Source: an uncultured Clostridia bacterium
Lineage (GTDB): Bacteria > Bacillota > Clostridia > TANB77 > CAG-508
Reading direction: 5' to 3'
Assembly (NCBI GenBank): GCA_944386745.1
Contig: CALXCG010000012.1
Location: 1 to 34,515 of the forward strand
DNA length: 34,515 bases
Shown one piece after another: positions 3,070-27,479 of this stretch. Numbering within the stretch: position 1 is the first letter of the stretch; the number at the start of each line of letters is the position of its first letter. The notes under the pieces are model-generated. The model was not told the DNA's origin. It worked only from the letters and a program-made list of their open reading frames with translations, and did no database searches. The translations under genes were made by a program, and so were the position numbers.

Positions 3070-3876
3070 TTATATATCTTTATTTTTCTTTTGCATTGCT
3101 CTTTGTATGATTCTAATATTTAATCCTAAAATTCTTGATATTTGATTTTGAGTCGCTCCCTTAATTTTGCTTATTTTACATATAATTTCATCTCTAAAAT
3201 TAGGAGAATAATGTTGTATTTCTTGAATATTTTCTATCTTTAAATATTCTTTTATAAAATAGATAATCTCATCATCTGTTAAATTATTTTTCATTTCATA
3301 TTCTAGTAATTCTTCGCTATTTTTAAATTTATAACTTTCTTGATTAAACAAAATAAATTGTGCTTTTGCATCTTTATTATCTAAAGAAAACATTTCCAAT
3401 ATTTCTTTTGTGTCTATTAGTTTGTTTTTTTCTTCATTTTCTTCTAAATATTCATTATAACTACTCCAATTATATGTATCAATCTTACTAATCCCTGCTT
3501 TTACAGGATTTTGGTGAATATATCTTACTAAATTTAATTTATATATTTCTCCTTCTACAGTTTTACTTTTAAATCTATTTTCAAACAAATGACCTGTTCT
3601 TTCATATTTTTTATTAAAATAGCTAGAATATCTTAGTTGCAAACTTTGCATTATTTTTGCTAATTTATCATTCTCATCTTTAATCTATAAATGAATATGG
3701 TTTGGCATTAAAACATACGAATATAATTTATATGAAAAAAAATCCTTTGTTTCATTTAGTTCTTTCTTGAATTTTAAATAGTCTTGTGAATCAAAAAATA
3801 TTTCTTGCTTGTTTATTCCTCGTAACATGCAATGATATACTTTATTTTTACTTATTTTTCTTGATTTTCTAGGCAA
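3070..3876 (-). pseudogene. REP-associated tyrosine transposase (Y1_Tnp / IS200-like), interrupted by an in-frame amber codon
   Basis: The family cuts and rejoins single-stranded DNA at small hairpins through an HUH motif and a catalytic tyrosine. The first part has the family start (MPRKSRKISKNKVYH, then MLRGINKQEIF) and the HUH motif in VLMPNHIHL. A TAG at 3685-3687 follows directly, and the same frame continues after it with KIMQSLQLRYSSYFNKKY (candidate Tyr), ERTGHLFENRFKSK and a C-terminal helix-turn-helix (ATQNQISRILGLN). Total length of 268 codons fits the family. A TTG start follows AAGGAGG. Elsewhere in this window TAG ends gapA and ftsK, so it is a real stop. Either a dead copy or a sequencing error; the flanking repeats are intact. 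Confidence 0.88.
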
Positions 3877-23633: not shown

Positions 23634-24266
23634 CTATATCTTTTCTTCTCCTCTTGCTATAATTAAAAAGTTATATTCTTTTAATTCATTTCCATCTTTT
23701 GTATCTTGCATATCTCCACTTTCATTTGTTTCATATTTCCATTGCCATTCAATGGAAACTTCCTTTACTTCTCCTTTCTTTATATTTCCATTTAAAGTCT
23801 CACCTAAATCTTCTAGTGTTTCATAATAATTATCTCTTCCTTTTTCATTAAACACTAAATTTTTAGGTTTTTGATTTTTGCTTTGGAATATAATCTGATA
23901 ATTTAAATTTTCTTGTCCATATAGCTTTATTGAAAATTCTCCTTTTGTTCCTGGATATATTATTCGATTCCAATTTGTTTCATTTGATATGTTTGAAAAT
24001 AAAGATATTTCTCTTGTTTCAGATTTTTTAGTAGATATTCTAAACACATTATCTGAATTTGAATTATAAATTTGACTATTTTGATTTTCTTCATTTTCTT
24101 TATTGTTTTCACCTATACCTTGTGAAGAATAAAAATTTTTAAAAAATATTATATCATCTTTGAAAAAGTTTAAATTGCTTTTTGATAAAAACCAGATTAA
24201 TATTATAAAAAGAATTATCAATATAATTATTATTTTTTTCTTTTTGTTTTTACTTTTTGCTTCCAT
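23634..24266 (-). CDS. Membrane-anchored TasA-like protein
   Basis: A lysine-rich start is followed by one hydrophobic helix (about residues 11-28), an Asn/Glu-rich spacer, and a beta-rich domain. That domain shares a pattern with the 25316 protein: IIYPGTKGEFSIKLYG compared with KIAPGTEGNFQIKVDA, NYQIIFQS compared with DYKIKFTD, LEDLGETLNGNIKKGE compared with LELGDALSGTINADDE, and IEWQWKYET compared with IKWKWNYET. They are thus paralogues. TasA-family proteins are exported through SipW and polymerise into matrix fibres; this one, with a probable uncleaved or SipW-cleaved helix, may anchor or cap them (inference). AAAGGA precedes the ATG. It is the last gene of the operon. Confidence 0.78.
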   Translation of the reverse strand: MEAKSKNKKKKIIIILIILFIILIWFLSKSNLNFFKDDIIFFKNFYSSQGIGENNKENEENQNSQIYNSNSDNVFRISTKKSETREISLFSNISNETNWNRIIYPGTKGEFSIKLYGQENLNYQIIFQSKNQKPKNLVFNEKGRDNYYETLEDLGETLNGNIKKGEVKEVSIEWQWKYETNESGDMQDTKDGNELKEYNFLIIARGEEKI

Positions 24267-24317: not shown

Positions 24318-24866
24318 CTAAACTTTTCTTTGTTCTGTATGGACCTTTATTTGCACATCTTGAAAAATATCTCTTCCTTGTGCTTTTCCTTTATCATATA
24401 GGATTTTTAGTTTGTAATTATCTTCTTGCTTTTCGTCTTTTGATAATAAAAATTCTTCGCTTTTGTTTTCTTCTAAAGGTATTTCTTCATCATTTTTATA
24501 TAATTTGAAAGTAATACTTTCATCTGTTTTTGTTAATATTTCTATTGTATATAATAAATCAACCTGTGTAATTTCTTCATTTGCATTGTAATTTTTCACT
24601 TTAAAATCATATGTACTTTCTTTATTTGTTGATGTTATTGTTATTTCTGGATTGTTTTCAACTTCTAAAATTGGTTTTGCAATTCCTGTAGTTGAATTTA
24701 TTTGTGTTGTACTCATACTTTTTCCCATACTATATCCAGATATAAAAAGTGAAATTACCATTAATACTATTAATAATAAGGCTACTTCTCTTTTTTTAAT
24801 TTTTCCTTTTTTTATGTTTAATTTTATAATTTTATTTTCTTCATTTAACTTTTCAGTTTTTTTAAT
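24318..24866 (-). CDS. Exported beta-rich protein of the TasA/SipW-like locus; start codon unusual or frameshifted
   Basis: After a lysine-rich N-terminus comes a membrane helix (REVALLLIVLMVISLFISGY) and a beta-rich domain (ITITSTNKESTYDFKVKNYN, ITQVDLLYTIEIL, DESITFKLYKNDEEIPL). I recognise it only as a type often found beside SipW. The frame is open up to 24869 but contains no ATG, GTG or TTG upstream of an ATG at 24761, which lies inside the helix. A strong AAAGGGGAG at about 24874-24882 is spaced seven bases from an ATT (24866), which may be the start. Alternatively an ATG at 24873 is followed by a stop after two codons, as if one base had been lost. It lies between sipW and the 23634 gene. 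Confidence 0.65.
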   Translation of the reverse strand: MKKTEKLNEENKIIKLNIKKGKIKKREVALLLIVLMVISLFISGYSMGKSMSTTQINSTTGIAKPILEVENNPEITITSTNKESTYDFKVKNYNANEEITQVDLLYTIEILTKTDESITFKLYKNDEEIPLEENKSEEFLLSKDEKQEDNYKLKILYDKGKAQGRDIFQDVQIKVHTEQRKV

Positions 24867-24924: not shown

Positions 24925-25332
24925 TTATTGGCTAGTATTTTCTCTTGTTTTGGATGAATAAAGAATAGTTTTGAATTTACCAATAATGCTATTTGAATGG
25001 ATTAAAGTTTCATCTTTAGTATTATTGTTGTCACCTTTGGTGTAAAACCCATTTTCATTTTTTTCTATAATTCTGTGTGTTACTATATTGCCATCATCAG
25101 CAATATATGCCACTATATCTCCGACTTTATATTCATTTTGTTCTTGGATAATGATGATATCATTTTTCTTAAATACTGGGTTCATACTATCAGACATAAC
25201 TCTTAGAACCTCTATTCCAAAAGGTTTTATATTCATTTCACTTGAAAAAAATTGGATATAAATAATCATGAGAACTAATAAAATACTACAAATTAACAAC
25301 AAATTCCACAAAATTCTATGCTTGTGGTACAA
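24925..25332 (-). CDS. sipW: Signal peptidase I, SipW (ER-like) type
   Basis: SipW-type peptidases use a Ser-His pair, not Ser-Lys, and mature TasA-family proteins. The membrane helix WNLLLICSILLVLMIIYIQF is followed by the serine motif VMSDSMNPVF, DIIIIQ, then VGDIVAYIADDGNIVTHRII with the catalytic His, and GFYTKGDNN with conserved Asp. A C-terminal membrane segment is missing. The frame stays open to an ATG at 25386 inside the TasA-like gene, but a TTG at 25332 with GGA upstream, right before the helix, gives the usual start and only 17 bases of overlap. Overlap implies translational coupling with the TasA-like gene. Length is about 135. Confidence 0.88.
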   Translation of the reverse strand: MYHKHRILWNLLLICSILLVLMIIYIQFFSSEMNIKPFGIEVLRVMSDSMNPVFKKNDIIIIQEQNEYKVGDIVAYIADDGNIVTHRIIEKNENGFYTKGDNNNTKDETLIHSNSIIGKFKTILYSSKTRENTSQ

Positions 25333-25897
25333 CTTGTGTTCCTGAAACGATGACATCAAATTCATAGTTTGTAATTTCTTGTGCATTTTGTGTATCTATT
25401 TTATCATTAGAAGCTACTTCTGTTGGATTACTTCCTGTTTCATAATTCCATTTCCATTTAATATCAAATGTTTTGGATTTGTTTTCATCATCTGCATTGA
25501 TAGTTCCAGATAAAGCATCTCCTAATTCTAAAACAGAATTATATTCTACCTCCTGATAATAAAATTTTAAATTAGCTGGTTTAGTTGTTTCGTCAGTAAA
25601 TTTAATTTTGTAATCAATCCCTACATCTGAACCTGTTGCATCAACTTTGATTTGAAAATTCCCTTCTGTTCCTGGTGCTATTTTTCCATTTACTAATGTA
25701 GAGCTATCATATGTAGAACCTAGAGATATTGTTTGTACTTCTTCTTTTTGCCCATTTACTTTAAAGTCCCATGTTGCAATTTGTGCTATTCCATCACCTC
25801 TAACTTCTGTTACATATTTTGAATAGGTTTGTCCACCTACAAATGATAAAACAATTGCTACTAAAATAGCGATAATTATTACTGCTTTCTTTTTCAA
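25316..25897 (-). CDS. TasA-like secreted fibre/matrix protein
   Basis: A signal-type helix (VIIIAILVAIVLSFVGGQTY) is followed by SKYVTEVRGDGIAQIATWDFKVN, the typical start of mature TasA/camelysin proteins, where export signals are cut by SipW. The body is beta-rich (KIAPGTEGNFQIKVDATG, DYKIKFTDET, LSGTINADDENKSKTFDIKWKWNYE, EITNYEFDVIVSGTQ). Length 193 is somewhat short for TasA. A TTG start follows AAGGAGG with good spacing. It is the first gene of a minus-strand operon with sipW and two relatives, driven by the promoter at 25999-26027. A structural role outside the cell is inferred from family. Confidence 0.85.
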   Translation of the reverse strand: MKKKAVIIIAILVAIVLSFVGGQTYSKYVTEVRGDGIAQIATWDFKVNGQKEEVQTISLGSTYDSSTLVNGKIAPGTEGNFQIKVDATGSDVGIDYKIKFTDETTKPANLKFYYQEVEYNSVLELGDALSGTINADDENKSKTFDIKWKWNYETGSNPTEVASNDKIDTQNAQEITNYEFDVIVSGTQVVPQA

Positions 25898-25998
25898 TAA
25901 GCATCCCTCCTTTTTTATTTTTTATTTTGATTTTTCTTGAAATGTTTTTCGATTAAAAATTTTGAAAAAAATTATAGAAAAATGAAAATGTTAAATTA

Positions 25999-26027
25999 AT
26001 TATAATTCCATATTTTGGAAATGTCAA
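25999..26027 (-). promoter_or_regulatory. Consensus promoter of the TasA/SipW-like operon
   Basis: TTGACA (26022-26027), 17-bp spacer, TATAAT (25999-26004) on the minus strand: a perfect sigma-A match. A leader of about 95 bases leads to the TTG start. Confidence 0.85.
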
Positions 26028-26094
26028 CTATTTTTTACAAATTTTTATAATTTTTCATCGCAAAATTCGACAAAAAATACCAGTTGACATTTCC
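26017..26094. promoter_or_regulatory. Mirror-image operator: 13-bp perfect inverted repeat across two -35 boxes
   Basis: GGAAATGTCAACT (26017-26029) and AGTTGACATTTCC (26082-26094) are exact inverse copies, 52 bp apart. Each contains the -35 of one of two divergent promoters plus the six bases after it. One regulator could bind both, or loop between them. Confidence 0.6.
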
Positions 26095-26112
26095 ATTATT
26101 TTACATTATAAT
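26084..26112 (+). promoter_or_regulatory. Consensus promoter of the divergent secreted-protein gene
   Basis: TTGACA (26084-26089), 17-bp spacer, TATAAT (26107-26112): a perfect sigma-A match. The leader is about 40 bases. Confidence 0.85.
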
Positions 26113-26159
26113 ATGTATATCTCTTCCAAAAATTATATTAATTTAAGGAGGTATTCTTA

Positions 26160-27479
26160 TTGAAAACAAAGCTATTTATTATTCTTAGTTTTTTCGTCGT
26201 CTTTATAATTCCTTTCTTTTCTTTCTTCTCATTATCTAAATATCAATTTGAAAATTCATTTCTAGTTGCAAAGTTAAAACTTGACAATACTCCACCAGAA
26301 ATAAAATTAATTAGTTATAGTAACACTAACACTCAATATCCCAAATATGCTAATAAAACTCATACAATTACAACTAGAATTCAAATAATAGAAGATCATA
26401 TTTCACAAATTAATCTTGATTCTAATCATATTAAAATCAAAGTTCATAATAAATTAGTTTCTGTTAATTTTAAAAAGATTACTTGTATTTCTGAAAGTGA
26501 ACATATCTATGATATTGTTTTTACAAATGTTCCTGGTGATGGGAAGTTAAGTATTACGTTTTTAGAAGGTACAGTTATTGATACATCTTTGCAAAATAGT
26601 TCGGAAAAAACATTTTCTTCTGATATTTTAATTGATAATACCGCTCCAGTTACTATTTTTTCTGAAGAATTAATATCTGATAATTATTCTAGAGGAACTA
26701 TTAAAGTAAATGAAGGTATTCAGCCTGTTAATGGTTGGGATATTTCTTCAGATAATATGATTTTATCTCGTAATTTCCCTAATCCTATTGAATATGAATT
26801 ACCAATTAAAGATTTTGCTCAAAATCCAGCTTCGGCATTAGTATCAATAAAAAAAGCTAGTAATATCGTTTTGGAATATGCTGCATATGATGCAGGCACT
26901 AATAATTATGATATTGTTAAATCAGGAGAAATTTCTGGTAGTAAAGTGATAAATTCTGATAGTATTTGTAAAACAGAGGCTTTATTTATTAGAACTTCTG
27001 GAAATATTGATTCTTCTTCATTAAAAGGCAGAGCTTTTCTTTATACTTATTATGGTGAAGGTTCATCTGGAAATTGTAAATCTACTGAGCTTAGATATAA
27101 TTATGGCTATAACCCATTAACTTCTTGGAGAATTGTAAATAAAGAACATTTAGCTGGTATAACATCTGGTAAAGGCTTTACTGAATTTGGAGGAACTGGA
27201 GTGAATTATTCGGCTAAAGGTGGTTCTAATACCATACCAGAAGAAATTGCAAAACAATACCTTTTTGGACTTTCAGGAATTGCGTTATCTTTAGATGATT
27301 ATTCTGAATATTCAATTGTTTATCAGATTTATGTTTTAGGCGTAGGTTGGCTTCCTTGTAAATATAATGGTGAAGAAACTATGTATAGTTATGATAAGCC
27401 TATGTCTGCAATTCGTATTAATATTGTTCCTAATTCTCAAAGGCAATATTTAATTGATTATTGGAATGCTGGCAATTAA
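26160..27479 (+). CDS. Secreted protein with Ig-like segments and a C-terminal ChW-like module
   Basis: The only plus-strand gene. A signal helix (FIILSFFVVFIIPFFSFF) is followed by two beta-rich stretches opened by LDNTPPEIKL (about 41-50) and LIDNTAPVTIF (about 157-167), as in bacterial Ig-like domains. Near the C-terminus (about 380-424) IVYQIYVLGVGWLPCKYNGE followed by YDKPMSAIRINIVP resembles the clostridial hydrophobic-W (ChW) repeat of surface proteins. No LPXTG anchor is present. TTG start after AAGGAGG, with a leader (ATTCTTATTG) much like that of the TasA-like gene (ATGCTTATTG). It is divergent from the TasA/SipW-like operon under a mirror-image promoter, so it is probably expressed with it. 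Function unknown. Confidence 0.8.
   Translation: MKTKLFIILSFFVVFIIPFFSFFSLSKYQFENSFLVAKLKLDNTPPEIKLISYSNTNTQYPKYANKTHTITTRIQIIEDHISQINLDSNHIKIKVHNKLVSVNFKKITCISESEHIYDIVFTNVPGDGKLSITFLEGTVIDTSLQNSSEKTFSSDILIDNTAPVTIFSEELISDNYSRGTIKVNEGIQPVNGWDISSDNMILSRNFPNPIEYELPIKDFAQNPASALVSIKKASNIVLEYAAYDAGTNNYDIVKSGEISGSKVINSDSICKTEALFIRTSGNIDSSSLKGRAFLYTYYGEGSSGNCKSTELRYNYGYNPLTSWRIVNKEHLAGITSGKGFTEFGGTGVNYSAKGGSNTIPEEIAKQYLFGLSGIALSLDDYSEYSIVYQIYVLGVGWLPCKYNGEETMYSYDKPMSAIRINIVPNSQRQYLIDYWNAGN

Follow-up and report, generated by a model that had tools for sequence, protein, structure and literature searches.

In B. subtilis, Spo0A~P reaches the matrix genes indirectly, through SinI-SinR-SlrR (PMC10134886). 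The published 0A box is TGTCGAA, with base contacts at G2, C4 and G5; this heptamer predicts Spo0A binding in C. difficile, whose own Spo0A also recognizes the box (PMC3485338). In C. perfringens, the BsaA/SipW pellicle operon, sipW-bsaABCRSD, owes its activation to BsaRS, a two-component system that it encodes itself (PMC7395162). The locus described here lies in a window of 34,515 nucleotides, the whole stretch of DNA analysed, from an uncultured Clostridia bacterium. Like the tapA-sipW-tasA operon of B. subtilis, it combines a TasA-like protein, a SipW-like peptidase and more exported proteins in one operon, with Spo0A as the ultimate regulator, here a proposed one. It differs from that operon in that a direct site is proposed, in its gene order and in a TasA-like protein that Pfam does not recognize. 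With the C. perfringens operon it has in common a clostridial SipW and an exported polymer-forming protein; no two-component genes like BsaRS were seen beside the window locus. The main finding of the comparison across the genus is a genus-wide, helically phased, composite candidate 0A-box operator at matrix and surface genes.

The leftward operon of the window, on the minus strand, encodes a TasA-like exported protein of 193 aa with a TTG start (25316-25897), a SipW-like signal peptidase I (24925-25386), an exported or membrane protein with no family match (24318-24761) and a second, distant TasA-like paralogue (23634-24266; 36% over 146 aa). The SipW-like ORF as listed overlaps that of the TasA-like protein, and its true start is probably further in. 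On the plus strand, a divergent gene (26160-27479) encodes an exported protein of 439 aa with a signal-peptide end like that of SipW substrates and a weak Ig-like match; it has a protein match in 68 of 98 sampled genus genomes. The predicted structure of the 193-aa protein (mean pLDDT 74.7, alignment of 23 sequences) finds its best solved matches in 5of1 and 5of2, both B. subtilis TasA, with a Z of 6.4, an rmsd of 3.5-3.8 over 132-140 residues and a Foldseek probability of 0.99; the middling Z supports, rather than proves, a TasA jelly-roll fold. No Pfam or NCBIfam family scored above cut-off for this protein, and the profile of the TasA-like family gave no significant sequence match in the PDB; as the sequence-family test failed, it is named TasA-like and not TasA. 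By the same reasoning, the peptidase, which adjoins the gene of its TasA-like substrate and is placed in signal peptidase I by TIGR02228 (E 3e-25, over cut-off), is called SipW-like rather than SipW, since the SipW equivalog model from Bacillus, NF046067, gives 74.4 bits, below its cut-off of 190.

The first-pass annotation of this DNA had described a TasA/SipW-like locus, a character that the TIGR02228 match and the predicted fold nearest TasA bear out, with two perfect TTGACA-17-TATAAT promoters pointing apart at 25999-26112, a perfect 13-bp inverted repeat over both -35 boxes, and leaders that end on both sides in AAGGAGG and a CTTATTG start. All of these are present exactly as claimed. The leftward promoter, that of the TasA-like gene, has its -35 at 26022-26027 and its -10 at 25999-26004 (minus strand), and the rightward one at 26084-26089 and 26107-26112 (plus strand), each pair 17 nt apart. 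The arms of the repeat, GGAAATGTCAACT (26017-26029) and AGTTGACATTTCC (26082-26094), are fully complementary over 13 bp. The ribosome-binding sites lie at 25906-25912 (minus) and 26145-26151 (plus), and the TTG start codons at 25897 (minus) and 26160 (plus). In a half-window scan, just these two among 104 promoter-like sites scored 12/12. Perfect promoters number 63 in the genome, against 6 for the reversed control, so an outward-facing consensus pair is not rare. Neither structured RNA nor tRNA was found in the window. The spacer of the TasA-like promoter (25999-26027; L089-L118) contains a conserved TTCCA-N5-TGGAA (AAAATATGGAATTATAAT) between -35 and -10, possibly a second operator.

Midway between the promoters lies an asymmetric 21-bp element, the putative central operator TGTCGAATTTTGCGATGAAAA (26052-26072, minus strand). 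Read on the minus strand from 26072 to 26052, the conserved element is TGTCGAANNTTGCGATGAAAA; it is composed of a first half with the exact 7-bp 0A core TGTCGAA (26072-26066), a second half, TTGCGATG (26063-26056), and an A-tract (26055-26052). The most strongly conserved block between the promoters is TTTTCATCGCAAAATTCGACA, or TGTCGAANNTTGCGATG in the other reading, and conservation runs on into AAAAGT. The 17-mer core CAYCGCAAN2TTCGACA occurs in 177 of 211 genus genomes, at one to thirteen copies per carrying genome, and its reversed control in 0. Outside the genus it is rare in the family, with the exception of G276, which has nine copies. When TasA-like loci were fetched by protein similarity rather than by motif, all 29 with a recognized start carried the site with three mismatches at most and at the correct spacing. 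In the papers searched the composite motif is not printed, the one string match being an unrelated plant paper. In G276, a member of another genus, most of the nine copies (L326-L334) stand before genes for PDDEXK_2-like nucleases, whose TTTACT/TAAAAT promoters lie 19 nt away; regulon transfer and contamination are both possible.

In invertons, too, a promoter region ahead of surface genes is flanked by inverted repeats. Here, however, the repeats contain the -35 boxes, which inversion would therefore not switch, and no inverted orientation is seen in relatives. The orientation of the site relative to the TasA-like gene is the same in 29 of 29 loci, and invertible DNA was rejected on this ground.

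The distance from the site to the -35 box is 8, 18-19 or 27-29 nt in 125 of the 128 copies that are followed by a strong promoter; for promoters next to control words the figures are 3 of 189 and 4 of 260, with no pattern. Judged from sequence, these classes are a strict 10-bp helical phasing. Because neighbouring sites are not independent where the genomes are related, the formal probability makes the case look stronger than it is, but the phasing recurs across several gene families and several genera. On the divergent side, 15 of the 20 promoters found within 75 nt sit 10-12, 21 or 31 nt from TGTCGAA. In the window itself, the operator stands 28 nt from the leftward -35 and 11 nt from the rightward one. 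The phasing of the divergent side implies that one site can serve both promoters, and one bound protein could touch the polymerase at either of them. In the divergent loci L029, L025 and L114 the right promoter is distant (229-269 nt), which shows that the right gene is not in every case dependent on the site.

Across the genus, the targets of the site comprise TasA/SipW-like matrix operons, sortase-adhesin operons, Rpn-type nucleases and OppA-like proteins. The clusters of downstream genes are TasA-like proteins (44), sortases (34; PF04203), PDDEXK_2 (25; PF12784) and Transposase_31/YhgA-like proteins (24; PF04754). The genome of the window has a second exact copy, before genes for a sortase and for a thioester/SpaA adhesin with LPVTGM at its end, and two near-copies with 28-nt spacing, ahead of an OppA-like and an Rpn-like gene. 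At L119 (G000 C6, 1562-2846), the thioester/SpaA adhesin beside the sortase is spread across two overlapping reading frames, the result of either gene breakage or faulty assembly.

Spo0A is the best candidate for the reader of this site, and we lean, if cautiously, towards a composite Spo0A operator. Spo0A_C matches are found in 210 of 211 genus genomes, and the DNA-binding domain of the organism's full-length Spo0A, including SRVERAIRHAIEVAW, matches 1lq1/1fc3 (E about 1e-52), with a recognition helix identical to that of these structures and to that of B. subtilis. Seven spoIIA promoters of the genus have a common TGTCGAA...TCGACA pair, with TGTCGAA 39-40 nt from the -35. A tandem spacing of 10 bp is the pattern of 0A boxes. 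An extra CGAA stands exactly 10 bp upstream in 13 of 144 sites, against a mean of 0.3, and such an extra box, 10 bp upstream, is also present in three TasA loci whose main box is degenerate. The second half, TGCGATG, also lies 10 bp from the 0A box and is not itself one. In G543, of another genus, the site precedes spo0A itself. With the Spo0A regulon of B. subtilis and C. difficile (PMC3485338), the system has in common the exact 7-bp core, A/T flanks, an identical recognition helix, a box at spoIIA promoters and possibly tandem boxes 10 bp apart. It differs in its invariant second half TTGCGATGAAAA, in three fixed positions upstream of sigma-A promoters, in targets that are mostly surface and matrix genes, and in a composite form nearly limited to one genus.

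Other observations speak against Spo0A. The 17-mer is almost confined to the genus and G276, yet Spo0A is universal, for which reason the factor is not identifiable by co-occurrence. Invariance is as high in the second half, TTGCGATGAAAA, as in the 0A box, so that a second or a different protein may bind; this half is not a known 0A box, and we know of no precedent for it. The centre of the site, at about -52, -62 or -72, is further upstream than at classic Spo0A-activated promoters. No TGNCGAA was found next to the spoIIGA and spoIIE promoters of the genus, nor was a box found at its spo0A promoters. A second Spo0A_C paralogue as a required reader was rejected, as G004 has the site and one Spo0A_C gene only. 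Some side observations concern the sporulation promoters of the genus. Those of spoIIA (L361, L362, L365-L369) have in common TGTCGAAAACTTCTT...TCGACAAAACTTCTT and a TTGGAA -35. In place of a 0A box, several spo0A promoters (L139, L141-L148) share a palindrome resembling TGGAAAAATTTTCCA close to the -35. The spoIIGA and spoIIE promoters (L149-L162, L346-L358) have in common blocks of the AAAAGACA and GTAGTAAAATA type, which may be weak Spo0A sites.

The inverted repeat had suggested other explanations to the first-pass annotation, namely a repressor bound over both -35 boxes or descent from an inverted duplication. A repressor dimer on GGAAATGTCAACT/AGTTGACATTTCC that shuts both promoters would suit a repeat that is perfect and symmetrical in the window and kept at 12/13 in G062 and L196. 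Given two TTGACA boxes, the seven further matching bases have a P of about 3e-4 by composition, which is moderately unlikely; the match was noticed after the fact and is lost in relatives. The 38-nt inverted repeat around the arms has a match of 76%, which is explained by both promoters being consensus. Among 25 loci where the TasA-like operon lies divergent to a gene related to that of the 439-aa protein, the arms match perfectly or nearly so around the -35 boxes in three (the window and two near relatives, L196 and G062), and the repeat is lost in the other 22, whereas promoters and central site persist. It is already broken in G004, where the divergent protein is 87% identical and the right arm reads GGTTGACTTTTCC, and in most other loci the arms agree over little beyond TTGAC. 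The genome holds no further copy of the 13-mer, and with up to two mismatches 54 sites were found against 42 in the control, so there is no enrichment; the repeat was rejected both as a regulon motif and as a conserved feature. We regard the repressor as very improbable. The left promoter consensus, ATAaTTGACAATt.cAAAAtATGGAAtTATAAT (also given as TTGACAATt.cAAAAtATGGAAtTATAAT), differs from the right one, TTGACTTTTcc.tTtTTtcACtaTATAAT, in the divergent loci compared, and the window repeat is thus best read as two separately conserved promoters grown alike over seven adjacent bases. Descent from an inverted duplication is not supported either: once the -35 boxes and TTTCC are set aside, each promoter half has a conserved consensus of its own. 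The genes on either side are not copies of one another, the 193-aa and 439-aa proteins having no common family match and resembling each other just at their signal-peptide ends. What survives of the proposal is that both sides are probably under one control, exerted through the central site, another element than the one put forward. It is also conceivable that this site has nothing to do with transcription and marks, for example, a place of recombination or insertion that has travelled with Rpn/transposase-like genes; of the 198 sites sampled, roughly one in four stands in front of a PDDEXK_2 or Transposase_31 gene, and an unrelated gene end often comes just before the site. Its strict 10-bp phasing to -35 boxes, the equal service of TasA-like and sortase operons and an orientation to the TasA-like gene that is never flipped make this reading most unlikely too.

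A weightier alternative, which we hold to be possible and short of probable, is that some other, unrelated activator, for instance of the AraC or OmpR type, binds the whole 21-bp two-part site, which would then resemble the 0A box by chance. Such a protein would account for two halves of equal invariance and for a composite site that is nearly genus-specific while Spo0A is universal; steps of 10 bp suit any activator touching RNA polymerase, and where TTGCGATG occurs without the box it is accompanied by three promoters, each 28 nt away. It would, however, leave to chance the exact 7-bp 0A box, the extra CGAA at exactly 10 bp, TGTCGAA at spoIIA and the site upstream of spo0A in G543. Rather doubtful, in our estimation, is the fuller proposal that the operator is read by Spo0A together with a second DNA-binding partner and wires sporulation control directly to matrix, sortase-adhesin and Rpn genes from three helical positions.

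With Spo0A as the preferred reader, its phosphorylated form would bind the TGTCGAA box of 26052-26072 and probably also, in tandem and 10 bp on, the adjoining TTGCGATG half, and would activate sigma-A RNA polymerase from one and the same helical face. Leftward, from 28 nt upstream of the -35, the output would be the TasA-like protein, SipW and two exported proteins; rightward, from 11 nt upstream, the 439-aa exported protein. The same site would drive sortase-adhesin, Rpn nuclease and OppA-like genes across the genus. Sequence comparison shows the site, its conservation across the genus, its targets, the phasing on both sides, the 0A core, the conserved recognition helix of Spo0A and the box at spoIIA; the factor, activation instead of repression and the joint response of both sides are what we infer. 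If this is true, Spo0A directly controls matrix and adhesins in a large genus of mostly uncultured gut Clostridia, with no SinI/SinR relay, unlike in Bacillus, and Rpn nucleases fall under a developmental regulator. An operator so invariant and strictly phased makes the regulon readable from genomes alone, and the set of operators constitutes natural data on the upstream distances from which an activator can work.

Some further observations concern other parts of the DNA. Two identical copies of a perfect promoter, TTGACAGATGACTTAGAATTACATATAAT, are separated by 1.6 kb (G000:C13:701-729 and 2278-2306), and a similar one is present in C19. Within the window, two genes were recognized by eye: a REP-associated-transposase-like gene (3070-3876), apparently split over two ORFs, and, between pgk and gapA, a gene for a prepilin-like protein (KGITIIALVITIIVLLILAGI; 1234-1620).
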